IMG/VR virus record: IMGVR_UViG_3300042556_002406
Coordinates: 1 to 20,990 of that record
Strand: one strand, 5' to 3'
DNA: 20,990 nucleotides
From: a virus
The notes under the pieces: model-generated
Told to the model about the DNA's origin: nothing
Database searches by the model: none
What the model saw: the letters and a program-made list of their open reading frames with translations, nothing else
Shown: piece after piece, positions 1,445 to 19,869 of the stretch
Layout: every line of letters starts with the position of its first letter
Numbering within the stretch: the stretch's first letter is position 1
Made by a program: the position numbers and the translations under genes

Positions 1445-1705
1445 ATGGCTAAATCTGGAAAACATGTAACGGTATCGCAGGCGGCGACAATGCTAGGCTG
1501 CTCTGCTCGATGGGTGCGATACCTACTCGAGAATGATCAGCTCAAGGGCAAACAGGTCGGCGCACGGCAGGACTGGCATATCGATGTTCAGTGCCTTATC
1601 GACTGCGTCACGGTGCGGCAGGGCAAGCTTCTGGCACAGGTCAAGGCTAATGAGCTGAAGATTAAACGTGCCCAGGTGGCCCTTGCCAAGATGCGAGGCA
1701 AGTAA
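1445..1705 (+). CDS. helix-turn-helix DNA-binding protein
   Basis: An 86-aa protein. Residues 7-37 (HVTVSQAATMLGCSARWVRY, then LLENDQLKG) form an excisionase/MerR-type winged HTH. A basic helical tail (64-86) rich in Lys and Arg may form a coiled coil or contact DNA. The ribosome binding site is AGGAG/AGGAT, and the stop overlaps the csrA start as TAATG, so the pair is translationally coupled. The likely role is a transcription regulator or recombination accessory protein of the early module. It shares the AAxxLGxSxR pattern with the 53-aa protein encoded at 418-579. Confidence 0.8.
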   Translation: MAKSGKHVTVSQAATMLGCSARWVRYLLENDQLKGKQVGARQDWHIDVQCLIDCVTVRQGKLLAQVKANELKIKRAQVALAKMRGK

Positions 1706-2061
1706 TGGCACTTGTACTAACTAGACGTGCTGGCGAGCACATCGTCCTATCGACTGAGTTCGAGGGCAAGATGGTGACCTTGGCAGTAATCACATACATA
1801 GGGCACGCTGGTGATCGCGGTCGTATCGCAGTCTCAGGTGCGCCATCAATTCGGGTCTCGAGGTCAGAAGTTTTCTTTAACGACATCAAGGAGTTGGATC
1901 ATGAGTGTGGTGGCAATAGAGCAGGAGGCTCCTGCGGGAGTGATGGGCAGGGGGGCAGCAGTAGCAGCAGCCTGCCGACAGATAGTGCTCAGCACGACGA
2001 TGGATCTAAGGGGCAAGAAATATATCAGAGCGGAGGGGTGGCAGGCATTGGCTGCGGCTAA
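1705..2061 (+). CDS. csrA: CsrA-family RNA-binding translational regulator
   Basis: Residues 1-62 match CsrA: LVLTRRAGEHIVL (3-15) corresponds to LILTRRVGETLMI of E. coli CsrA, and GRIAVSGAPSIRVSRSEV corresponds to VRIGVNAPKEVSVHREEI. The conserved RNA-contacting Arg of the last strand is kept in VSRSEV. About nine extra residues separate the two halves. CsrA dimers bind GGA motifs in mRNA leaders to block or stabilise transcripts; a phage copy could reprogramme host carbon metabolism or regulate phage mRNAs. Beyond residue 65 the ORF continues for about 53 Gly/Ser-rich residues that lie out of frame over the start of the next gene; this tail looks like a by-product of overlap. It is preceded by the HTH gene with a TAATG overlap. 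Confidence 0.85.
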   Translation: MALVLTRRAGEHIVLSTEFEGKMVTLAVITYIGHAGDRGRIAVSGAPSIRVSRSEVFFNDIKELDHECGGNRAGGSCGSDGQGGSSSSSLPTDSAQHDDGSKGQEIYQSGGVAGIGCG

Positions 2062-5409: not shown

Positions 5410-6075
5410 TTGTCTAGCAGAATTCCAATTATGGTTGGCGAGCGGTTGTTCCCTAATCGGGCTGCCCTATTCGGCCACTACAGCGCCATCGTCCAGAGCT
5501 ACCTCCATGGGCAGGAGGTCAGCCCTGAGCACGCTGCTGAGTTCACCGCGCTCCTGGTCTCTCAGCATCCCGATGGTGAGGAGATCACATCTGACGTGAC
5601 GGGCTATCGGGTCATCCATGAGCACTCGGTGTTTCGACGCTCAAAGAACCACGTCGAGATCCTGCGCCAGTCAGTCGAGCCGTGCCTTGTCGGTTGGGTC
5701 AAGGCTTGCAGGGGCTTTGCCAGCGTCGATTGGGGCCGCCTAGGGGCTCGATCTGCTATACACGGCCAGATCGTCGAGTTCCGCCAATCATCGCTCCTAC
5801 GGGCACCAGAGTGCGCAGAAACGGGCGTGATGCTTGATGAGGATACCGCGGTCGTCGATCACTTCCCGATTACATTTAGCCAGCTCTACTCCGCATGGCT
5901 ACGTGAGCGGGGGCTCGATAGTCGCAAGATCCTAGTCACTCACCGGCCTAACACCCCAGTGCAGATGTCAGACCCTGCCTTGCGCACTGATTGGCAAGAT
6001 TATCACGAGACCCACTGCACGCTGCGGATTGTGACCCGTCAGGTCAATTCGCAAAGTTGGCGCGAGGTCATTTGA
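5410..6075 (+). CDS. DCL-family (DUF3223) protein with putative metal-binding C-terminus
   Basis: A 221-aa protein starting at TTG 5410, chosen because AGGAG (5398-5402) sits seven bases upstream; the next ATG would remove conserved residues. Residues 11-103 follow the DUF3223/DCL pattern: a LFPNRAALFGHYSAIVQSYL opening, then EHAAEFTALLVSQHPDGEE and a V-GYRVIHEHSVFR core that binds nucleic acid in plant relatives involved in rRNA maturation. The C-terminal part contains LLRAPECAETGVML and VVDHFPITFSQLYSAW, which resembles the Cys-x-x-Cys-G/VDH-x-x-P-x-F half of HNH-like phage DCL proteins, although the second Cys appears replaced. Phage DCL proteins are common but uncharacterised. Confidence 0.7.
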   Translation: MSSRIPIMVGERLFPNRAALFGHYSAIVQSYLHGQEVSPEHAAEFTALLVSQHPDGEEITSDVTGYRVIHEHSVFRRSKNHVEILRQSVEPCLVGWVKACRGFASVDWGRLGARSAIHGQIVEFRQSSLLRAPECAETGVMLDEDTAVVDHFPITFSQLYSAWLRERGLDSRKILVTHRPNTPVQMSDPALRTDWQDYHETHCTLRIVTRQVNSQSWREVI

Positions 6076-6078
6076 GCC

Positions 6079-6162
6079 ACGATGGCCATGGCCCCTGCTG
6101 CTCGTTGTAGCAGGGATTTTCTGCGGGCATGCTGCCGTTGAACTGTCATCCATGGCCATCGT
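6079..6162 (+). ncRNA. long inverted repeat with inner hairpin (structured RNA or terminator)
   Basis: ACGATGGCCATGG (6079-6091) pairs perfectly with CCATGGCCATCGT (6150-6162) and is followed by TTTAAAT. Inside, CCCTGCT (6093-6099) pairs with AGCAGGG (6109-6115) across a nine-base loop and is followed by ATTTT, itself a plausible intrinsic terminator for the DCL gene. The design (13-bp closing stem, inner hairpin, T-rich end) repeats that of the elements at 1210-1430, and CTCGTTGT occurs here (6101-6108) and in candidate 2. ATGGCCAT within each arm is itself palindromic, so DNA-level protein binding is an alternative. Confidence 0.45.
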
Positions 6163-6175
6163 TTAAATCCCCTAG

Positions 6176-6330
6176 GACCGGCGGCGCATTAAGCCAAGTT
6201 CTGCGCCGGGGCTTCGGGGGTGCGGTAGGTACCCGGTCACCTATCGCTCTCACGTGTGTGATCGGACACTAGCCCACTGTCGGAGGTGGGGCGTGAGATG
6301 CCGCGCTTTGCGGTTGTTTGAGGGAGTTTA
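6176..6330 (+). ncRNA. GC-rich structured leader upstream of the ParB-like gene
   Basis: A non-coding stretch with several nested complementary pairs: GACCGG and CCGGTC enclosing GGCGCA/TGCGCC; GGTAGGT with ACCTATC (one wobble); TCTCACG with CGTGAGA enclosing a smaller hairpin (GACA/TGTC); then CCGC/GCGG close to the gene. It is far more GC-rich than the gene it precedes. It does not form a tRNA cloverleaf and no riboswitch class was recognised. It may be the 5' UTR of the ParB-like gene or a separate RNA. Confidence 0.35.
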
Positions 6331-6342
6331 GAGGAGCCTGCA

Positions 6343-7410
6343 ATGGATACTAATGATTTGTTTACTTTGCCTTTCTATGCGTATCGAAATCCACAAGTTG
6401 AGCAATTGCTGCTTGATGAAAAGTTTAATTTTAAGTTGACTGAATTGCCAAGCTCAGTTATCAGGCAAATTGATGTCAACAGATTTCAAACAAGAAATCT
6501 TGAAGGTGAAAATATTGTAAACAACGATTATGTGGCATTAATGCTAGAAACTATAAAAAATGATGATGTTCCTTTACCTGCTGTCGTTTTATTCTTTGTA
6601 AACAATAAATATATAGCTTGTGATGGTCGTCATAGACTTGAAGCTTATAAATTATCTGGCAAGACTTCATTTGTTGCATACGTTATTGAATGTATTAATG
6701 AACAGAATATTTGGCTTAATGGCCTACGTCTTTCCAATTTGATTAATGAAATGAATGGCGAAAGAGCTGGTAGAGATGCCGAGGAAAAAGCTAAAAGAAA
6801 AGTTGCTCAACAGCTTTGCGCTACCGAAATGTTTGCTTTGATTACTCAAAATGGAAATAGAAACGAGGTGATTGAAGAAACATTAAAGAAATTTAAAATT
6901 ACCGAGGCTTCTTGTCGCAGAGCAACAATTAATATTTTGGCAAAGAAAGAAGTATTACATGACTTGGTGTGTCAAACTACCACGCCAGTGGCGCAAAGAT
7001 TAGTAGATGGAATAGCAAATAATGAAATTCAATCTGTGCAAGCAATCATGAAACGATGTGAACCTGAGCACAAAGTTAAAATAGTTCAAGCTCTTACTGC
7101 GGCTAAAGATTATGCAGCAAGTGCAAAAATTGTTGAAGTGCTTAAAAATAATGCGGACAATGCTCCAAGCATAATTATATCAGCTTTGCAAAACGCGGCG
7201 GGCCTTGATGAAAACAACAGGAAAATGGCAGTTGCTGAAAGAACACATCAGGCAAATCAAACATTTTTAAGAAAAATATTTGGTGACCTGTTTAGAGTAT
7301 TGACTTATAATGTCCCATTTAATGGCCAAGAAAAACAAGCGGTTATCAAAGACAGTGAAAAATTAATAGACGCGTTGAAAACATACAAAAATAATTTGGA
7401 GGCTTTATAA
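6343..7410 (+). CDS. ParB/Srx-like nuclease-domain protein in an AT-rich island
   Basis: A 355-aa protein with a GAGGAG ribosome binding site. Residues 40-120 match the ParB N-terminal (ParB/sulfiredoxin) fold: IDVNRFQTRN (43-52), a V-ALMLETIKNDDVPLPAVV segment, then KYIACDGRHRLEAYKLSG (89-106), whose DGRHR (94-98) is the nucleotide-binding box. The rest (about 130-355) is mainly helical and unlike chromosomal ParB, with no clear HTH recognised. In phages such proteins are variously DNA-binding, nuclease or modification-associated; partitioning is not implied because no ParA is present. The gene is strikingly AT-rich against GC-rich neighbours on both sides, which suggests recent acquisition. 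The gene at 7412 starts one base after its stop codon. Confidence 0.75.
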   Translation: MDTNDLFTLPFYAYRNPQVEQLLLDEKFNFKLTELPSSVIRQIDVNRFQTRNLEGENIVNNDYVALMLETIKNDDVPLPAVVLFFVNNKYIACDGRHRLEAYKLSGKTSFVAYVIECINEQNIWLNGLRLSNLINEMNGERAGRDAEEKAKRKVAQQLCATEMFALITQNGNRNEVIEETLKKFKITEASCRRATINILAKKEVLHDLVCQTTTPVAQRLVDGIANNEIQSVQAIMKRCEPEHKVKIVQALTAAKDYAASAKIVEVLKNNADNAPSIIISALQNAAGLDENNRKMAVAERTHQANQTFLRKIFGDLFRVLTYNVPFNGQEKQAVIKDSEKLIDALKTYKNNLEAL

Positions 7411-7411
7411 C

Positions 7412-7702
7412 ATGTGGCATATTTGCAGAAAACTAATTCAAACTTATTTGGATAACAATGGATACGTAAGCTATAAGATAGCTCGTAATTTAATTGAATC
7501 TTCAATTCCAAAGCAAATAATAGAAAAAATGGAAAATCCTAAAAAACGCCATGCGGGATATTGGTCTCATGGTACTATTTCAGCTTTACTTAAAGGCAGT
7601 CGATATAGGAAAAGAATGCCACATGAAGCACCAGGAGTTTACGTCAGAGACCTGCCAGATAGCCAGATCGATGGCGATGACAAGAGCGCGGCACATGTGT
7701 GA
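7412..7702 (+). CDS. small basic protein of unknown function
   Basis: A 96-aa basic protein starting one base after the ParB-like gene, with GGAGG upstream, so the two are co-expressed. The first 70 codons share that gene's AT-rich composition and the last 20 or so are GC-rich, marking the island boundary. Features include YVSYKIARNLIESSIPKQII (19-38) and Lys/Arg clusters such as KKRH and RYRKR, suggesting nucleic-acid contact. Its 3' end overlaps the HNH gene in another frame. It may be a partner of the ParB-like protein; no family is recognised. Confidence 0.6.
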   Translation: MWHICRKLIQTYLDNNGYVSYKIARNLIESSIPKQIIEKMENPKKRHAGYWSHGTISALLKGSRYRKRMPHEAPGVYVRDLPDSQIDGDDKSAAHV

Positions 7703-7847
7703 GCATATTGACGATCTGGGCAATCGTTGCGCGTCCTGCCTTGATCTTGACGCGCATCATTTGACATACCATCGGTATGGCAAAGAATTGCCGGAAGATC
7801 TTATGATTTTGTGTCGCAATCATCATATCCAAATACATGGTAGGTAG
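7623..7847 (+). CDS. small HNH endonuclease-like protein
   Basis: About 74 aa from ATG 7623 (AGGA 12 bases upstream); ATG 7671 or 7677 would give a shorter form that keeps the domain. It contains a compact HNH/zinc module: C26, C36 and C39, then DAHHLTYHRYGKELPEDL (43-60), and MILCRNHHIQIHG (61-73) with C64, H67, H68 and H72. The HHLTYxRxGxExxxDLxxLC layout is characteristic of phage HNH nucleases. The N-terminal half is short for the family, and it overlaps the preceding ORF in a different frame at the edge of the AT-rich island. It could be a free-standing homing-type nuclease that moved with the island, or a truncated remnant. Confidence 0.7.
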   Translation: MKHQEFTSETCQIARSMAMTRARHMCEHIDDLGNRCASCLDLDAHHLTYHRYGKELPEDLMILCRNHHIQIHGR

Positions 7848-7855
7848 GTATTTGA

Positions 7856-8128
7856 ATGCCCACTCTATGGCAGGTAATGGTCGATCATCGTGGTCGCCAG
7901 TGGGCCATAATTAGCAACCTAACGGAGGAGGTTGCCCGCGAGCTGAGTACAGAGCTTAATCGCTCAGCTAAGGCAGGAGAGCCTATTTTGTTTTGGCCTG
8001 AGCATGTCTCACGGACTTGGGCCATTGGCAGGGAGGATACGACAGATGAGCAATGCAGTGATGTGCGATGCCTGGGCGATCGAGATGGCATGGATCGAGA
8101 TGATCCTGACAATGGAGAAATGGAATGA
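7856..8128 (+). CDS. small acidic-tailed protein of unknown function
   Basis: A 90-aa protein beginning MPTLWQVMVDHRGRQWAIIS, which looks like a small beta-rich domain, followed by an amphipathic helix (TEEVARELSTELNRSAKAG). The C-terminal 25 residues are very acidic (DRDGMDRDDPDNGEME). It is preceded by a TAGGTAGG repeat that supplies a weak ribosome binding site and overlaps the next gene by ATGA. An acidic tail raises the possibility of DNA mimicry or protein binding, but no family is recognised. Confidence 0.65.
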   Translation: MPTLWQVMVDHRGRQWAIISNLTEEVARELSTELNRSAKAGEPILFWPEHVSRTWAIGREDTTDEQCSDVRCLGDRDGMDRDDPDNGEME

Positions 8129-9157: not shown

Positions 9158-9522
9158 CGCACCTACAGCTACTGATCGAGTCGCAGCAGCGAGTCCTGAA
9201 ACTCGAGCGCCACATCGGCCAAATCAACAAGGGCATCGATGTCGTTGATGTGCTTCACAAGCAGATCAGCGCATACCAGAAAGAAATCAGGAGGCTACTC
9301 AATCGGCTATTTCGTTATTCGATGGATGATGGCACTGAGCATCAACATCGTTATGCTCTACTGGTACCTAGCCTCGAGACCAAGGGCGAGGGTCGATACA
9401 CCACCATCACGACCATGGCAGACAAAGAGGAGGCGCTCAGCCTCGCGCATGAGATGCTCACGCTCTACGACTTACACTGCGAAGTCATGGATACCGAGAC
9501 GCAGAATCTCCTAGATACCTAG
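9154..9522 (+). CDS. coiled-coil plus small alpha/beta protein, unknown function
   Basis: A 122-aa protein read from ATG 9154, coupled to DUF3310 by ATGA and with GAGG upstream. Residues 1-50 form a long amphipathic helix likely to be a coiled coil (LLIESQQRVLKLERHIGQIN, then KQISAYQKEIRRLLNRL). The rest (60-122) resembles a small domain with YTTITTMADKEEALSLAHEM. This is the last plus-strand gene; its TAG shares the bases CTAG with the convergent methyltransferase stop. Function unknown. Confidence 0.65.
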   Translation: MTHLQLLIESQQRVLKLERHIGQINKGIDVVDVLHKQISAYQKEIRRLLNRLFRYSMDDGTEHQHRYALLVPSLETKGEGRYTTITTMADKEEALSLAHEMLTLYDLHCEVMDTETQNLLDT

Positions 9523-10106
9523 TCTCGACGCAGCACGGTAAGACCATTGTTGTTCTGGCGGATCAGCTCGATCCGCCATTTATTATTTGCATCTATGAAC
9601 TCGTCAATAGCCATCAGCAGCCCTGCCTTGCCAGCATAGGTCGGCCTAGCCAATGGCGAGGCATGAGGGTAGATAGGCTCATCCTGATGACCGTAGGTCA
9701 CGGTGTCATGTAAGATAATCACGCCATTTTTTCTTATGCGATCGGCGTGTTTTGCGAGCTCGCCGCGGAGCTGAGCATAGGTGTGCAACGTGTCAATAAA
9801 TAGCAGATCGGTCTCCTCCATCACACTCATCGTCAGCACATCGGCCCGCCGAAACTCATACTCGATGCCAGCAGATGCCGCGTGCTCAGCTACTAGGCTC
9901 GTGTCCACATGCACGATGTCATAGCTGATCATGCGCTGAGGCAGCCCCGCCAGCAGAGCCCACGTGGAGATCACGCCACGCACGCCCATCTCGGTGATGT
10001 GCTCCTGATTCCAGGCATAGTCGCGCAGGATGCTGAGATGCTGGTTGATGTCGCTCGGCGTGTCCCGTACACGGGCATACTCGGTCAGTATCGACATGAT
10101 GGTCAT
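9519..10106 (-). CDS. class I SAM-dependent methyltransferase (Methyltransf_24-like)
   Basis: A 195-aa protein. TEMGVRGVISTWALLAGLP (38-56) is the SAM-binding E/D-x-G-x-x-x-G loop of motif I. SYDIVHVDTS supplies the acidic residue at the end of strand 2. DLLFIDTLHTYAQLRGEL (100-117) with VIILHDT (129-135) is the FIDxxHxYxxxxxDL/HD signature of the Methyltransf_24 group. Such enzymes often methylate sugars or small molecules in glycan clusters. It overlaps the upstream glycosyltransferase by ATGA, which suggests both modify the same glycan, on a virion protein or the host surface. It is the last gene of the minus-strand late cluster. Confidence 0.82.
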   Translation of the reverse strand: MTIMSILTEYARVRDTPSDINQHLSILRDYAWNQEHITEMGVRGVISTWALLAGLPQRMISYDIVHVDTSLVAEHAASAGIEYEFRRADVLTMSVMEETDLLFIDTLHTYAQLRGELAKHADRIRKNGVIILHDTVTYGHQDEPIYPHASPLARPTYAGKAGLLMAIDEFIDANNKWRIELIRQNNNGLTVLRRD

Positions 10107-10822
10107 CTCTGCACCGGAAGGTAGTCCGTGTACTCGTACGGCCAGTGCGGCGTGAGCTCGACGATGCCGCGTGTGGTGTTGTGCAGTCGCAGATGATTAG
10201 CAGCCATCTCGCTGACGATGTTGGTGCTCCACCCTGATGCGTGATAGCCTCCAGACGTGCCCCAACGATAGATGTAGAACCTATCCTTGTCCTCGATCTC
10301 CTGCGTGATGGTGCCGTATTTCTTGCGCAACTCATCAAATAACAGAACGTCTATTGATCCGCTATCTCTGACCTCGCTGTATCTGCCGATTGAGTCAAAT
10401 ACTTCACGACTCATCATCAGGTTGCAGTGGTAGAGATTGCGGCTTGCTGTAAGCTTGTGCGCGTCCTCCTCGAACCATGCGCTAGCCGTGTGGTAGATGC
10501 GATTACTGTCGAGATGCTCGACGCTGTAGCTCAGCCGCCACGGCAGATAGATGTCATCATCTTCCCAGATCGCTAATAAGTCGCCGGTGGCCATGGATGC
10601 AGTCGCGTTGAACTTTGCCCCAAGCGGCCGGATCTGATCTGCCACGTTGTAGATCTTGACCTGCGGGTGATCGTAGATCAGCGTCTGATCGCCGTAATCG
10701 TTAAGGATTATCAGCTCTTTCTCGCCTGCGTAATCCTGCCGTAGAAACGACTCGATAGCATGCTCGAGCTGGCGAGGCCTGCCATATGTCGGGCATAGGC
10801 AACTGATCTTTGGCAGCGTCAT
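10103..10822 (-). CDS. family 2 glycosyltransferase (GT-A fold)
   Basis: A 239-aa protein. The start KISCLCPTYGRPRQLEHAIE (5-24) and ELIILNDYGDQ are the nucleotide-sugar-binding half of a GT-A domain, and LLAIWEDDDIYLP (82-94) carries the metal-binding acidic cluster E87-D90 (DxD equivalent). HCNLMMSREVFDSIGRYSEV resembles the acceptor region. The normal catalytic features appear present; the sugar and acceptor are unknown. GGTGAG two bases before the start supplies the ribosome binding site, and the gene begins just after HNH. Coupled to the methyltransferase, it may build a methylated glycan on a phage structural protein or on the cell surface. Confidence 0.88.
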   Translation of the reverse strand: MTLPKISCLCPTYGRPRQLEHAIESFLRQDYAGEKELIILNDYGDQTLIYDHPQVKIYNVADQIRPLGAKFNATASMATGDLLAIWEDDDIYLPWRLSYSVEHLDSNRIYHTASAWFEEDAHKLTASRNLYHCNLMMSREVFDSIGRYSEVRDSGSIDVLLFDELRKKYGTITQEIEDKDRFYIYRWGTSGGYHASGWSTNIVSEMAANHLRLHNTTRGIVELTPHWPYEYTDYLPVQR

Positions 10823-11483: not shown

Positions 11484-12380
11484 CTATATGATCCATGAGA
11501 TCTTGCGTGTCGGGAATCCCTCGACGTTGCTAAATATCCAGCAGTCGCCAGACTTGAGCATCGCCTCGATTGTGCTACTCGAGGCATAAAATCCTTCTGG
11601 CCCAGGACTGCCCGGTCCTACTGGGCCAGTGTGCGACGATGCGCCCCAACTGTTATCGATGCGCCCATACTCGCGGCCAGTGATGGTTGCGTAACCGCAG
11701 AGACACATGCAGTGCTGCCACGTGCCAGCGGCCATGGCGATGCCGTTGGTGTCTCGAGTCATCGTGAATCCCTGCGACGAGCACATCGCTATGCCGTAGC
11801 CGTTGGCCAATGCTTTCTTCGCATCGACCCATGTGCGCACTCTCGTGACGGCTCGCACCGGGTGGATTTTCGCAATCTGCTCAAGCTCGAGGGGCACACC
11901 TTTACTGCCATACTCACGACATCGAGACTCTGAGTACTCACGCAGGTCGATGCCCAGATACTCCTCACGGCCAAGCACGCCCCAATCTCTCACCCAAGCC
12001 GCAGCATTAGCGCCGATCGCACCATCACCGCGAATACTGCCACCACCTACCTCGACGCGGGCACCGCCGTAGATCGGCTCAGTTGCGAGCGGAATGTACT
12101 GCTCAGACTCGCCAGCGACGATCTCGGCGCACATGGTGTACTCAATGGCGCGAGCAGTGCCGAACGCAACGCAAGAGCCAACCTTGCCCTGATTGCGTGG
12201 AGGCAGGAGAGCGCCAGTTGCCTTGCGAGCGAGATCCCAGAGATAGACGTGATCGGGCAGATCCTCGATAGGAGTCGAGCCGATAGGCGTACTACTGATG
12301 TCTGCATCAACGCAGGTTGCGACGATGTCATCGACTGCCTGCTTGTCGTCTACCCATCCCGGCACATACTGGCTATTCAT
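11484..12380 (-). CDS. papain-like (C1A) cysteine peptidase
   Basis: A 298-aa protein with all four landmarks of peptidase family C1: RNQGKVGSCVAFGTARAIEY (62-81) has the oxyanion-hole Q64 and nucleophile C70; WQHCMCLCGY (221-230) has catalytic H223; and RIDNSWGASS (240-249) has N243 in NSWG. It has no signal peptide, and the 50-residue N-terminal extension is shorter than the usual inhibitory propeptide. PVGPGSPGPEG (253-263) is a collagen-like loop after the active-site Asn. C1 peptidases are rare in tailed phages; possible jobs are virion maturation, degradation of a host surface protein layer at entry, or lysis. It is coupled by ATGA to the secreted protein encoded upstream. Confidence 0.9.
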   Translation of the reverse strand: MNSQYVPGWVDDKQAVDDIVATCVDADISSTPIGSTPIEDLPDHVYLWDLARKATGALLPPRNQGKVGSCVAFGTARAIEYTMCAEIVAGESEQYIPLATEPIYGGARVEVGGGSIRGDGAIGANAAAWVRDWGVLGREEYLGIDLREYSESRCREYGSKGVPLELEQIAKIHPVRAVTRVRTWVDAKKALANGYGIAMCSSQGFTMTRDTNGIAMAAGTWQHCMCLCGYATITGREYGRIDNSWGASSHTGPVGPGSPGPEGFYASSSTIEAMLKSGDCWIFSNVEGFPTRKISWII

Positions 12381-13298: not shown

Positions 13299-14168
13299 CT
13301 AGTCGTGAGTTTTGACGGCTGGCACATGGTCGTACCTGCCGTCGAATATTTGCGGGTAGATCTCGAGAACCTGCTGCTCAACCTCAAGCCGCTGAGCTTG
13401 AGGTAGCTTCCTGCCAAAATACTCTCTAAATTGGCTGATATTCCAGCCCATTTCATACGCGCCGATGAGATAGTTGCGTAGCTTGTCGTTGAGCGTCAGG
13501 CTGTACGGCACGGCACCAAATCGCGGGAAACGATGGCACCATCCTAGCCATGGCTGATATAAGACCTTGCCTCCATGGAGACGCACTTTGTCGTGAATGT
13601 AAACCTCTTCGCCAGCGAATCCGCGGAAGTGCTGCGAGAATTTTGGCCAGTCGGCCTTGCGCATAAACGACAGTGCGCTGCCATGGGCATGCACTTCGCG
13701 CGTCTCGCTGACCGGGTAGCGACTATCGACTAGCCACGTGCCGAAAAAGTCACCGCGTAGCTCGGGACTCAACTCGGTGGCGATGATATTGCCCGCCTCA
13801 GAGCGTAATGGCCCGACCCACATATCACGACCAACTGCGTCAGCGCGGGCAGCAGCTATCAGTGCCTCTACCGCTCCAGGCACGAGCAGGACGTGACAGT
13901 CGATGACGAGGACGTGAGAGCCCTGCGCATGCTCCCAGACGCTATTCTTGGCGTGCGCTGGCCCCATGGCTTTGGGCGCATGGACATATCTGGCTCGTGA
14001 ATTAGCGCAGACATGATGGATATCGCCACGATTAGGCTCGGGGTGATCATCGACGACCAGCAGCTCCACACCGTCGAGCTGGTGGTGCATGCGCAGAGAG
14101 GATAGGGTCCACCAGACGCCTTGCGGGTCGTCATAGGTTGCCATCCCGATCGTCAGGTCAATTTTCAT
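13299..14168 (-). CDS. glycosyltransferase with a DxH motif, polypeptide GalNAc-transferase-like
   Basis: A 289-aa protein from ATG 14168 (11-base overlap with the Cys-rich gene); the ORF extends to 14324, but that extension does not look like a GT start. DLTIGMATYDDPQGVWWTLS (4-23) and ELLVVDDHPEP (35-45) open a GT-A fold. GSHVLVIDCHVLLVPGAVEA (83-102) gives D90-C91-H92, a DxH metal motif where GT2 enzymes have DxD. GFAGEEVYIHDKVRLHGG and VLYQPWLGWCHRFPRF (184-217) follow the GGE...R...GG...P...GxxxR order of polypeptide GalNAc-transferases (GT27). This suggests O-glycosylation of Ser/Thr. The Thr-rich adhesin is encoded two genes upstream. Substrate and donor are inferred. Confidence 0.82.
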   Translation of the reverse strand: MKIDLTIGMATYDDPQGVWWTLSSLRMHHQLDGVELLVVDDHPEPNRGDIHHVCANSRARYVHAPKAMGPAHAKNSVWEHAQGSHVLVIDCHVLLVPGAVEALIAAARADAVGRDMWVGPLRSEAGNIIATELSPELRGDFFGTWLVDSRYPVSETREVHAHGSALSFMRKADWPKFSQHFRGFAGEEVYIHDKVRLHGGKVLYQPWLGWCHRFPRFGAVPYSLTLNDKLRNYLIGAYEMGWNISQFREYFGRKLPQAQRLEVEQQVLEIYPQIFDGRYDHVPAVKTHD

Positions 14169-14541
14169 CTTTCGCTCTCGGCTCGTAGTCATCGCAGGAA
14201 ACGCAGTTGCGATTGCTCTGATCCCGCGATGATATCCTACAGCGATCATGTCTACCACACACGTGCAGGATTGCCAATGTGCCACCGCATCCGCAGGAGG
14301 GCTTAGCCTCAAGGGCTTCGCCAAGATGCTGGCAGGGCGAGGCCATGTGTAGCTTGATTTTGCGCAGCATCTCGAGCTGGTCGGGATTTAGGCCCGGAGA
14401 TCTGTCAGGAGCTGGTGCATATGTCACCCTGCGGGCGTTCACATCGGCAGACCAGAGTTTGGCATAACGCTCATCATTCTGGCTCAGCCAGCAGATCCGG
14501 CAGCCATCGCGTGGCGTTGTATGCTTGCACGGCAAAAACAT
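14158..14541 (-). CDS. Cys-rich, probably zinc-binding small protein
   Basis: A 127-aa protein from ATG 14541 (GGAG five bases upstream), encoded between the adhesin and the DxH glycosyltransferase. It contains ten Cys: C5, C14 and C17 near the N-terminus (PCKHTTPRDGCRIC), and a dense C-terminal knot (C70, C83, C85, C95, C101, C113, C116) with CQHLG, CGCGG and CVSCDDY. The spaced pairs suggest two or more zinc sites; the C-terminal part would otherwise be disulphide-bonded if exported, but there is no signal peptide. Its position suggests an accessory of the glycosyltransferase or a chaperone for the Cys-rich adhesin. I recall similar Cys-rich ORFs beside glycosyltransferases in metagenomic phages. 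Confidence 0.68.
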   Translation of the reverse strand: MFLPCKHTTPRDGCRICWLSQNDERYAKLWSADVNARRVTYAPAPDRSPGLNPDQLEMLRKIKLHMASPCQHLGEALEAKPSCGCGGTLAILHVCGRHDRCRISSRDQSNRNCVSCDDYEPRAKDEN

Positions 14542-14543
14542 CG

Positions 14544-16442
14544 TCACTCCGTGATCGTGTAGTAAATCAATCCATCGGTTGCGCCGTAGTTCCAAGTATA
14601 AAATCCATCTATAAATGAACCAGCAAATGTAAATTCAGCCACGCTAAAACTACCAGAATAACTAACCGGATCGCACGAGTCAAAAACACAATTGCCTTTA
14701 TATGGATCATATTGGTCGATAAGACCGCATCGATTTAAAAAGTTTTTCATAGGCAAAACACTGCACATGTTGCCTATACCCATTCCTTGACTTGTTCTCT
14801 GATATGTCCCAATCGATGCATAAACACCAAATTCAAATGGCTTTTTCTGAATAGTTTCATTTTCACAAATGCAATTATTGTAGATAGGCGTTGCCGCGTA
14901 TCCGCCGGTTGTTCTAACTCGGTAACCATACCCGTAACTTTTTGGGTTTATATTAAAAGCAGTTATCCACAATGTCTTTGGCACGCCGGGCGAAGTGCCG
15001 TGATAACCGGGGATTCCACCACATGCGGTATCGCATCTAAATCTGATGGGGTCTCCAGTTGTTGAATTAAAAATGCTTGGCGCGCAAGCAGGCACCTCGA
15101 CCATAGCACCAAGCGTGTAGGCAGGACGTGGTTGGCTATCTTGCGCAGGCCTAATCAATGTCAGCGTGACGCCGTCCATGCAAGGCCAGACGCCGTCATC
15201 ATCATGGAATGTGACAGTCAGCGTATTAGGCCTGCGCTTGGCCACGCCACTATCATCGCACCACCACCTATCGGCGCAGCCGCAATTGGTGCAATCGATT
15301 TTGCCACAGTTGGTTGTGGTAATTTCGTTGTCTGTCGTTCCAGGCGTTGTGGGATAGATACATGAGCATTTTCTATATACAAAATTATTGCCAACTTGAA
15401 CAACTGACCGACATTTATTCCAATCCTGATAACTACCTGATGCCCCATAAGGCACCCATTGATTGCTTACTGCCGACCATCGCCAAGTACATGTGCCAGC
15501 GCATGGTGGCTCGGTAGATGTCGTCGTAGTGACTTGAGGATAAACGGTTGTGCCACATGGGGCATAGACACGCCATTGAGCAGGTGCAGAGAAACCATAA
15601 GCCGGTTGATTCTGCAAGTTGCAAGTGCATGTCCCTATGCAATCATTTGTGACAGATACGGAATTTGTTGTGCCATTAGCGTAGTACACATCTCTAATGC
15701 AGCATCTGTCAGCGCATGGCGTTGTCGTTGTTGTCGTCGTGCTAGTCGTCGTACTGGTTGTTGTGCCAGTACCAGTGCTGGTAGTCGTAGTTGTCGTTGG
15801 TGCCGCGGTCGTGGTAGTAGTAGTTGTCGGTGGCGTGCTTTGGCAGCTAGCGCTCACGTACTCATTGACAAATGCCCCTGCTCTGGCAGGCGGCGATCCA
15901 CAGTAGCACCCGTCTGGACATGCGACAGCGCTAACCCATGCGCTACCATTCCATCGATAAATACATGTCTGATATTCGCATGCTCCCGGCGTGCTGCTTG
16001 TGGTCGTGGTCGATGTGCCGACGCATGATGTCGTGGCAGTCTCGCCCTCGGTTGTGCCATCATATGAGGGACTTGCGCAGGTACATCCCTCGAGGCAAAT
16101 AGCCACCGAGACCCACATGCCGGACATCCACACGTAGCTACATCCAGAGTTCTCGCATGTCGGCGTGGTGGTCGTGCTGGTCGTTGTCGGCTGGACAGAG
16201 TCTCGGCAGCTCTCGACTGCTACCGCGCCTTCGATGCCTGGGGTCGATGGCACCCAGCAGAAACACCCTGCGCCACAGTTGCCGGAGACAAGCAACCATG
16301 AGCCCATAGTCCAGATGTAGATACACGAGTCAGGACACGGAGTTGTTGATGTTGTCGTGGTCGTGCTGGTAGTCGTGCTCGAGGTTGTCGATGACGAGCT
16401 ACTACTCGACGTGCTCGAGGTCGTTGGCGGCATTGTGCTCAT
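14544..16442 (-). CDS. mucin-like Thr/Ser-rich, Cys-modular adhesin or tail fibre
   Basis: A 632-aa protein of alternating Thr/Ser-rich linkers (about 5-35, 85-94, 143-152, 202-241, 305-310) and five Cys-rich modules (C36-C79, C96-C140, C155-C200, C243-C296, C314-C379). Modules 1-3 share the frame C-x3/4-C-x-Y-x-W-x5-W-x5/6-C-x2/3-GC-x-C...C, so they are homologous repeats; 4 and 5 diverge. The linkers resemble O-glycosylated mucin stalks and the Cys pairs are probably disulphides. Residues 400-632 form a different, less Thr-rich, AT-richer receptor-tip-like domain. Encoded between tail and glycosyltransferase genes, it is probably a tail fibre or virion decoration exposed to solvent. No family name is recognised. 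Confidence 0.75.
   Translation of the reverse strand: MSTMPPTTSSTSSSSSSSTTSSTTTSTTTTTSTTPCPDSCIYIWTMGSWLLVSGNCGAGCFCWVPSTPGIEGAVAVESCRDSVQPTTTSTTTTPTCENSGCSYVWMSGMWVSVAICLEGCTCASPSYDGTTEGETATTSCVGTSTTTTSSTPGACEYQTCIYRWNGSAWVSAVACPDGCYCGSPPARAGAFVNEYVSASCQSTPPTTTTTTTAAPTTTTTTSTGTGTTTSTTTSTTTTTTTPCADRCCIRDVYYANGTTNSVSVTNDCIGTCTCNLQNQPAYGFSAPAQWRVYAPCGTTVYPQVTTTTSTEPPCAGTCTWRWSAVSNQWVPYGASGSYQDWNKCRSVVQVGNNFVYRKCSCIYPTTPGTTDNEITTTNCGKIDCTNCGCADRWWCDDSGVAKRRPNTLTVTFHDDDGVWPCMDGVTLTLIRPAQDSQPRPAYTLGAMVEVPACAPSIFNSTTGDPIRFRCDTACGGIPGYHGTSPGVPKTLWITAFNINPKSYGYGYRVRTTGGYAATPIYNNCICENETIQKKPFEFGVYASIGTYQRTSQGMGIGNMCSVLPMKNFLNRCGLIDQYDPYKGNCVFDSCDPVSYSGSFSVAEFTFAGSFIDGFYTWNYGATDGLIYYTITE
15720..15839 (-). 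repeat. degenerate ACN-codon tract (Thr linker) of the adhesin
   Basis: Forty consecutive codons are almost all Thr with Ser, Ala, Gly and Pro, giving a degenerate trinucleotide repeat at DNA level. A second copy with a related AAP-TTT core lies at about 16446-16520 in the preceding gene. Shorter tracts occur at about 16330-16430, 16160-16190 and 15985-16015. Such tracts could recombine with each other and vary linker length or module number. Confidence 0.6.
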
Positions 16443-16975
16443 TACCCACCACCCGTCGAGGTCGTGCTAGTTGTCGTTGGTGCTGCGGTACTGGTCGTCG
16501 TAGTGGTCGTTGTAGTCGTGCATATATTTGCACCGGGAATACAGAGTGTCGTCCAGTTAGGCAGCATCTCGCCATCGACACATTGCAGGGATGTAACTAC
16601 GTCGATCGACAGGATTGTGCCACCACCGCCACCAGAGAGAATAACCATGTACACCGGATTGCCGTAGCTGTTAATCCCCGCGTACCGCCCCAAGTATCTT
16701 TGCACTGACGGCACACCACCGTTGATGTCCTTGATTTTGATATCGACATCGTCGGTCCACGTGTCGGTATCGGCAACGTAGGTCAGCAATTTACCCGGAT
16801 AGTAGCCTGATGTTGGCGTTGTCGATGTGACACGCACCACATGCACGATCGGGTAACTTGGCCCGGATCGAGGCATGACGTTGCGGTCACGATTGCCAAG
16901 ATTGCCCGCCTCATAGTCACGCAGGAGCGTGGCGAGGCGCGCGATTGATTGGTCGTCTAGGAGATAGCCAGCCAT
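16442..16975 (-). CDS. probable tail/fibre-base protein ending in a Thr-rich stalk
   Basis: A 177-aa protein with AGGAGG ten bases upstream. Residues 1-35 are helical and charged, and about 40-150 are beta-rich with Tyr/Gly/Asp loops (YYPGKLLTYVADTDTWTDDV, LSGGGGGTILSIDVVTSLQC). The last 26 residues (152-177) are a Thr/Ser run ending in Gly. That run continues in a different frame, across a TAATG junction, as the N-terminal Thr/Ser run of the large adhesin. A short capsid-proximal collar bearing the same stalk type is one reading. No recognised family. Confidence 0.65.
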   Translation of the reverse strand: MAGYLLDDQSIARLATLLRDYEAGNLGNRDRNVMPRSGPSYPIVHVVRVTSTTPTSGYYPGKLLTYVADTDTWTDDVDIKIKDINGGVPSVQRYLGRYAGINSYGNPVYMVILSGGGGGTILSIDVVTSLQCVDGEMLPNWTTLCIPGANICTTTTTTTTTSTAAPTTTSTTSTGGG

Positions 16976-17898: not shown

Positions 17899-19869
17899 TT
17901 ATTTGGGGATGACCAGAGTGCCGGGCTTGATGATGTTGGCATTCTCCGCTGCTTTGACGAGACGTGCCATTTGCACGGCTTGGATCGCATCTTGTCGCGC
18001 AGCCTCAGCGGCAGCAGCGACCAATTGTTTCTGTGGGTCTACATTTGCATTAATCGACTCGACTCTCGCCCTGATCTGAGCCTCAGCAGCACCGGCAGAG
18101 CCAGCCACAAACGCCTGCGCAGTGCCTGCCTGGGGCGTCGCAAATTGCTTGATCATGTCTTGGAGCTGCTTGCCGACGACTCTAGTTTGTGCTGCTCGCA
18201 ATTTGTCCGCGGATTCCTTGCTGCCCTTGGCTGCCTGCGCCATCATCGATTCGAGATTGCCGGTCATCTCGGCGAATTTCTCGGTGATGGTCATATTGTT
18301 ATTTAGTATAGTCGCGGTCAATTTGGCGTTGTCTTTGGTGGCAAGCTCTAAATCAAGATTAGCTTTTTTCTCATTCTCAGCTTGCTCTAGAGCAAATTGA
18401 GCGTTGAGTTTTTGCTGATATGCAAGATTCTTTGCGTTGACCGCAGCCTCCTCGGCACTGACTCCTACTTTGGGCAGCTCATTATTGAGTTGCAAAAATG
18501 ATGACATCGCAGAAATCAAAGCAAGATTTGATTTTGACGCTATCTCTTTCTCAAGTTTTATTTGAGCTCGCACCTCATCGCCAATCGTCATCTGCCCTGG
18601 TCTATTTGGATCGACACGCGGTCCTTTGACAAAATCTCCAACTGCCATAGTCATGGCCTTGCCAATCTCAAATGGCGCGGTGACGACTGTTGTAGCGGCG
18701 GTGGTTGCGACCTTGCCTGCGGTCATGCCTTGGTAGTCCTGCATCAATTTGCGTATGCCAGCAACTACCTCGTCAAACATGCCCTTTAGCTGAGTAATAC
18801 CCTCGACCAATTTATTGACAACATCCTTGGCAATCTGTTTGCTCGACTCAAATATAGAGGCTAGCCCTGCTGCTTTATCTTTGGGGTCAACCACAGGCAA
18901 GAACGCCGCGGCGATCTCTTGCACGACTTCTTTGACGCCCTGAAACGCACCCTTGAGCGCAGAAAATGCCTTCTCTGGCTGTAATATGGCAAGCATCTGC
19001 TTGCCTATTTCTGTGAGCAGATCATTGAAGCCAGACGACAATTGTCGCAATTGCCCGTCAAATGACGCACCAAATGCTTCAGCGGCTGCCTTAGCCTCTG
19101 GTGAATTGCTCGCTCTGAATACTGCGCGTACTGCCGTTGCACTGCTCACCGAGCCTTGTTGCACGGCAGCCATTGCCTCCTCGACTGAGTAGGCATTGCC
19201 CGTGACTGCCTCGAGCTCTTGGGCAAGTGCCTCAAATACTTTCAGCCCGCCTCTTTGCAATGTTTTGAGCGGCCCGTCAGTGGCGATGGCTGCGCCACGG
19301 ATCTCAGTGATTGCCGCAGCAACTGCCTGAGCACCAGAAGCTCCACCACCGAGCAGCTCGATGGCGTTGCCAGCATTGGCTAGGATTGTCGATGCGCCTG
19401 CCGTGCTTATGCCAGCAGCCGTGAATTGTTCAAATGCCTTGGCCAGATCCTGCAATGGCACGCCACTGCTGCTGCTAAGGTCGCGTAGATCCTTGATTAC
19501 TTTATTGCCAGCCTCGATTGATTTGGCAGCGTACTGAGCTCGTATCGTCATGGTCTCAAGAGCGCCACCCATCTTTAAAATGGATACGGCACCTTGGATG
19601 GGTAGTCCAACAAAGAATTGGAACACGCCGCGTGCCATGTCCAATAGGCCTTTGACATCGTTCAAAGATTTCAGGCCTAGTGACTCTGCTAAGTTTAGTT
19701 TTTTCTCGCCTAGTTTGTCTTTTTCTTTCTTCAGCGCTTCAAGCTCTTCTTTAGTTTTCTTTGCTTTGTCGCCTACATTCTTGAGGTCTTTGCTGGCATC
19801 GGCAGCGCCCTTAGTCAGCTCAGCGCCCTGCCATGCCATCTGTACCGAGAGCTTAGCGATACTAGCCAT
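17899..19869 (-). CDS. tail tape measure protein
   Basis: A 656-aa protein. Residues 1-100 start MASIAKLSVQMAWQGAELTK then a Lys/Glu-rich coiled coil (KKTKEELEALKKEKDKLGEK). A helical, hydrophobic middle follows, with Ala/Gly-rich stretches (about 160-260 and 370-400) typical of tape measure proteins, which contain membrane-active segments. The first coiled coil and position directly after the tail assembly chaperones are the established order G, GT, tape measure. Length sets tail length at roughly 1.5 angstrom per residue, so about 100 nm if that rule holds. It overlaps the end of the T frame by eight bases (GGGAG upstream). Confidence 0.82.
   Translation of the reverse strand: MASIAKLSVQMAWQGAELTKGAADASKDLKNVGDKAKKTKEELEALKKEKDKLGEKKLNLAESLGLKSLNDVKGLLDMARGVFQFFVGLPIQGAVSILKMGGALETMTIRAQYAAKSIEAGNKVIKDLRDLSSSSGVPLQDLAKAFEQFTAAGISTAGASTILANAGNAIELLGGGASGAQAVAAAITEIRGAAIATDGPLKTLQRGGLKVFEALAQELEAVTGNAYSVEEAMAAVQQGSVSSATAVRAVFRASNSPEAKAAAEAFGASFDGQLRQLSSGFNDLLTEIGKQMLAILQPEKAFSALKGAFQGVKEVVQEIAAAFLPVVDPKDKAAGLASIFESSKQIAKDVVNKLVEGITQLKGMFDEVVAGIRKLMQDYQGMTAGKVATTAATTVVTAPFEIGKAMTMAVGDFVKGPRVDPNRPGQMTIGDEVRAQIKLEKEIASKSNLALISAMSSFLQLNNELPKVGVSAEEAAVNAKNLAYQQKLNAQFALEQAENEKKANLDLELATKDNAKLTATILNNNMTITEKFAEMTGNLESMMAQAAKGSKESADKLRAAQTRVVGKQLQDMIKQFATPQAGTAQAFVAGSAGAAEAQIRARVESINANVDPQKQLVAAAAEAARQDAIQAVQMARLVKAAENANIIKPGTLVIPK

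Follow-up and report, generated by a model that had tools for sequence, protein, structure and literature searches.

Mucin-type O-glycosylation is thought of as an animal system, and the GT27 polypeptide GalNAc-transferases are the enzymes that start mucin sugar chains. In Gram-positive bacteria, serine-rich repeat adhesins are low-complexity Ser/Thr surface proteins with accessory Sec export, which are O-glycosylated inside the cell by their own dedicated glycosyltransferases and undergo further glycan modification (PMC6973325, PMC7948813). In phages, glycans have been reported at the C-termini of capsid and tail-tube subunits of mycobacteriophages (Freeman et al. 2023, as cited in PMC12619734), but no mucin-like stalk or linker-enzyme pairing is described in that account. 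Here, we analyzed a 20,990-base IMG/VR virus record of an uncultivated siphophage (hereafter the window), which is not shown to be complete. It encodes Thr-rich, mucin-like tail proteins beside a glycosyltransferase (GT1) whose predicted structure best matches GT27 enzymes. A protein of an uncultured Caudovirales phage, A0A6J7WYC1, is the same enzyme (58% identical, TM 0.94), but it is annotated only as a GTA-type domain protein without a proposed function. Searches of the literature, which did not cover most subscription papers, found no phage pairing of a GT27-like enzyme with mucin-like stalks.

The minus strand of the window carries tail genes in the order of a tape measure (17899-19869, Pfam TMP_3), a 299-aa protein, the 177-aa and 632-aa tract proteins, a Cys-rich protein, GT1, a 90-aa protein, a 226-aa protein, a papain-like peptidase, an HNH gene, a second transferase (GT2b) and a methyltransferase (MT). 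The features concerned are as follows.

16442-16975, minus strand: 177-aa tail protein with a conserved N-terminal domain, a short C-terminal domain and a Thr tract at the C-terminus (acceptor candidate)
16454-16519, minus strand: Thr tract of the 177-aa protein (residues 153-174), with mixed Thr codons
14544-16442, minus strand: 632-aa mucin-like adhesin with Cys/Trp domains of about 45 residues (three regex matches) joined by Thr/Ser tracts, plus a C-terminal region (acceptor candidate)
16338-16430, minus strand: Thr/Ser tract, residues 5-35 of the 632-aa protein
15717-15839, minus strand: Thr/Ser tract, residues 202-242 of the 632-aa protein
14158-14541, minus strand: 127-aa Cys-rich protein with CxH/CxxC motifs (Zn-ribbon-like by eye), proposed partner of the transferase
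13299-14168, minus strand: GT1, a 289-aa GT-A glycosyltransferase, GT27-like by prediction, with D90-x-H92, E187 and H212
11484-12380, minus strand: papain-like cysteine peptidase
10103-10822, minus strand: GT2b, a second GT-A transferase (WEDDD motif), proposed to extend the glycan
9519-10106, minus strand: MT, a SAM methyltransferase (Methyltransf_24), proposed to methylate the glycan

The first-pass annotation had proposed a mucin-type O-glycosylation cassette at this locus, and the underlying observation was confirmed. The 632-aa protein has Thr/Ser tracts at residues 5-35 (28 T/S in 30), 86-95, 143-154 and 202-242 (41 residues of T/S/A/P/G), and the 177-aa protein ends in one (19/30). In contrast, other proteins of the operon peak at 5-11 per 30, and 500 shuffles of all residues never exceeded 16. 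The tracts mix all four Thr codons and give only weak DNA tandem repeats, indicating that they are maintained as protein rather than as a microsatellite. A regular expression (C..C.[WY].W...W...C..GC.C..P) found three domains of about 45 residues in the 632-aa protein, each preceded by a Thr/Ser-rich stretch. The same domain occurs in the stalks of several of the loci gathered for comparison (denoted by L and a number), namely L059, L067, L071, L208, L209 and, with Ser-Gly linkers, L113. The layout resembles that of mucins, which appear to alternate PTS and Cys domains. Elsewhere in the window, G+C drops to 40-43% at 6000-8000 (plus strand), against 49-62% in other parts, over a 355-aa protein without a Pfam match and a small HNH-looking ORF, possibly a recent acquisition. 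A small ORF at 1705-2061 (plus strand) has a start (MALVLTRRAGEHIVL) that looks by eye like the regulator CsrA.

GT1 starts at ATG 14168. It matched Pfam Glycos_transf_2 (PF00535, E 3.8e-10) above its cut-off and no other model, and GT2b matched the same family, while MT, which overlaps GT2b by 4 bases, matched Methyltransf_24 (PF13578, E 5.8e-8). With an alignment of 20 sequences, the AF2 model of GT1 reached a pLDDT of 91.5 and a pTM of 0.90. Foldseek ranks 1-43 in the PDB are all GT27 polypeptide GalNAc-transferases (best E 1.4e-13), which also fill the top 27 rows of the structural re-alignment. Against GalNAc-T2, the re-alignment gave Z 22.5 and 3.6 A over 264 residues, whereas the first other families were chondroitin polymerase (19.4) and the fucosyltransferase WrtF (18.7). 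Against the GalNAc-T2 sequence, D90-x-H92 corresponds to D224-x-H226, and E187...G199-G200...P206...H212...F214 runs without a gap on E334...G346-G347...P353...H359...F361, so that both parts of the Mn site and the E-GG-P-H spacing are kept. D-x-H, E-E (within G-x-E-E), the R and W-x-H are invariant in a wide alignment of relatives 29-49% identical to its first row. Of 109 distinct GT1 sequences, 100 have D-x-H-V and 105 have GF-x-[GC]-EE. The first-pass annotation was thus right about D90-C-H92, about the motif order in the 184-217 region and about the by-eye GT27 resemblance, but the first motif reads F-A-G-E-E rather than GGE.

However, GT1 should not be filed as GT27 proper. It ends at 289 aa, GalNAc-T2 aligns only up to residue 440-449, and no Pfam lectin model was matched, showing that the C-terminal ricin-type lectin domain is missing. 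F184 stands in place of W331 of the WGGE catalytic-loop motif of GalNAc-T2, and identity to GT27 enzymes is about 14%. Moreover, Pfam and NCBIfam gave only generic GT2-type models, and hhalign against the GalNAc-T2 segment aligned the same stretch with a probability of only 4.6. GT1 is also not assigned to the GT60-like GlcNAc transferases, as no match to PF11397 was found at E<=1 and phage proteins named 'Glycosyltransferase, GlcNAc' reach only TM about 0.6. By prediction, GT1 works like a GT27 catalytic domain.

We next examined whether GT1 is associated with the tracts in other phages. GT1 genes from the loci gathered were thinned to 35 clusters under 70% identity with at least 3 kb upstream. 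Of these, 17 have a same-strand gene with T/S of at least 22/30 within 5 kb, and 16 of the 17 end within 1.5 kb upstream of GT1. Such a tract occurs in 17 of 144 genes within 1.5 kb of GT1, but in 2 of 302 genes over 2.5 kb away in the same loci (Fisher p 2e-7), and in 0 of 403 genes of 23 loci with GT2b but no GT1. L183-L188 and L190-L192 have GT2b homologues without GT1, MT or Thr tracts nearby but close to a papain-like gene, perhaps reflecting a different acceptor. Similar papain-like proteins lie upstream of GT2b in loci without GT1 (L183-L192), and the peptidase is conserved at the end of the tail operon in all siphophage relatives examined. Seven more GT1 clusters have weaker Thr-rich stretches (16-21/30) in a neighbouring upstream gene, and 11 clusters have no notable Thr run nearby, although one of them, L078, has runs elsewhere in its contig. 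Four large GT1 contigs (87-165 kb: L074, L075, L077 and L078) have runs of eight Thr codons elsewhere in the contig, whereas two shorter GT1 contigs and three contigs without GT1 have none.

GT2b and MT are also linked to GT1. GT2b is 44-50% and MT 40-43% identical to copies linked with GT1 in L059, L067, L074 and L075, on contigs from 26 to 186 kb. In distant phages GT1 and MT are one polypeptide (L208, L209/L210, L212, L266, L269, L279, L282, L283 and L326), usually with GT2b next to it, and in L208, L209, L266 and L326 a protein with a strong Thr tract lies directly upstream. Linkage and fusion thus support the suggestion of the first-pass annotation that the second transferase and the methyltransferase belong to the pathway.

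With the 299-aa tail protein as hook, 101 loci were found to hold the whole interval from tail protein to peptidase, forming 15 clusters at 90% identity. All 11 GT1 clusters have T/S of 27-30 per 30 and Ser-Gly counts up to 5. Three clusters carry instead a PF11051 (Mannosyl_trans3) transferase, which scored 40.5-64.2 bits against a cut-off of 22 in L113, L127, L130, L132 and L137. This transferase is fused to a methyltransferase domain in L113 and L127, and the Cys-rich domain is fused N-terminally to it in L130/L132/L137/L145. The linkers of these clusters are Ser-Gly repeats (12-20 per 30), except in L130, which lacks them. This second stalk system lies at 11456-12991 in L113, 11163-12791 in L127 and 10478-12520 in L137. 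The predicted structure of the L137 fusion was of low confidence (pLDDT 38), and nothing is claimed about that fold. One cluster (L241-L246) has no GT and no linker of either kind. In the family of the 177-aa protein, the flanking domains stay and the linker alone switches, being a Thr tract beside GT1, Ser-Gly beside PF11051 transferases (except the L130 type) and absent where no GT is present. A tree of three tail proteins placed L113 among the GT1 loci and rejected a single clade of PF11051 loci (AU p 3e-6), so linker and enzyme changed together more than once, but the tree allows only two phylogenetically independent comparisons and the statistics by phylogeny are thin.

A further scan with the PF11051 transferase gave 17 clusters, of which 13 have Ser-Gly repeats and none has a Thr tract, compared with 17 Thr and no Ser-Gly among the GT1 clusters (Fisher p 8e-9), although the clusters are not fully independent and the thresholds were set after the siphophage loci had been seen. 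Leaving out clusters already known, 10 of 13 have Ser-Gly repeats, and two of the three without are weak matches (131 and 117 bits). In addition, L059 (186-kb contig) and L239 (62-kb contig) share 91.6% over 4.3 kb and 98.3% over 5.4 kb on either side of the cassette region. Between these flanks, L059 has a 781-aa tract adhesin, the Cys-rich protein, GT1, GT2b and MT, as well as a Thr tail on the preceding protein, while L239 has none of these but three other proteins (151, 361 and 511 aa), the last ending in the Cys-rich domain. The module of L239 is shared with a different phage type (L236, about 70% DNA identity). A bacterial host was also sought, but a scan of genome contigs gave a single weak hit, the genome behind it has no match, and tblastn against phages and plasmids gave no close relative. 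Tunturi_4 (22%) lies in a head-gene context and was not used.

Enzyme class follows linker chemistry across genes and across phages, and the enzyme that goes with Thr tracts has the predicted fold of the animal enzymes that glycosylate such tracts. The simplest account, in which we have fairly high confidence although it rests on sequence and predicted structure without activity or virion data and adhesin and enzyme may travel as a block for reasons other than substrate, is that the window holds a self-glycosylation cassette working like mucin-type O-glycosylation. In this account, GT1, with its D-x-H/H metal site, is inferred to transfer a sugar, not necessarily GalNAc, from a host nucleotide-sugar onto Thr/Ser of the tract linkers in the 632- and 177-aa tail proteins before or during virion assembly. 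GT2b is inferred to extend that sugar and MT to methylate the glycan. The Cys-rich protein probably helps present or recognise the stalk; this is only weakly inferred, although the fusion of its domain to the other transferase suggests that it helps the enzyme. The result would be stiff, protease-resistant, mucin-like stalks carrying small Cys/Trp domains.

Other explanations appear unlikely but should be considered. GT1, GT2b and MT could modify a host surface glycan or a lipid-linked sugar to mask a receptor, with the Thr tracts being plain flexible spacers. GT2-family enzymes with lipid-linked acceptors are common, and the best sequence-level PDB match of GT1 is to a chain named as an undecaprenol-linked glucosyltransferase. 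However, fold comparison puts GT27 above those families, no flippase- or GtrA-like partner was seen beside GT1, and enzyme class co-varies with linker chemistry. Similarly doubtful is that GT1 glycosylates another virion part, such as the Cys/Trp domains, the Cys-rich protein or another tail protein, and that the tract association reflects block inheritance of adhesin modules. The adhesin block recombines as a unit and the Cys-rich domain accompanies both GT classes. Nevertheless, only the linker switches with enzyme class in the 177-aa family, and the association extends to phages with different adhesins. Phage glycosyltransferases can also act on DNA (literature cited in PMC12619734), but hypermodification of phage DNA by this cassette is very unlikely, because the genes lie in the tail region beside adhesins and swap with adhesin linkers, and Pfam scans of the window named no base-modification gene.

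A broader reading, which we consider slightly more likely than not, is that a linker-enzyme pairing exists across many unrelated phages, in which Thr/Ser-tract stalks go with a GT27-like transferase and Ser-Gly-repeat stalks with a PF11051 transferase, often together with a methyltransferase. In this case, phages would have evolved mucin-like and proteoglycan-like O-glycosylated adhesins whose linker chemistry is matched to a dedicated enzyme. A widespread phage family (at least 555 stretches matched) with a GT27-like catalytic domain beside mucin-like stalks would give a small, lectin-free model of polypeptide O-glycosylation, a new layer of phage-host recognition, and a source of enzymes that modify defined Thr or Ser-Gly linkers.
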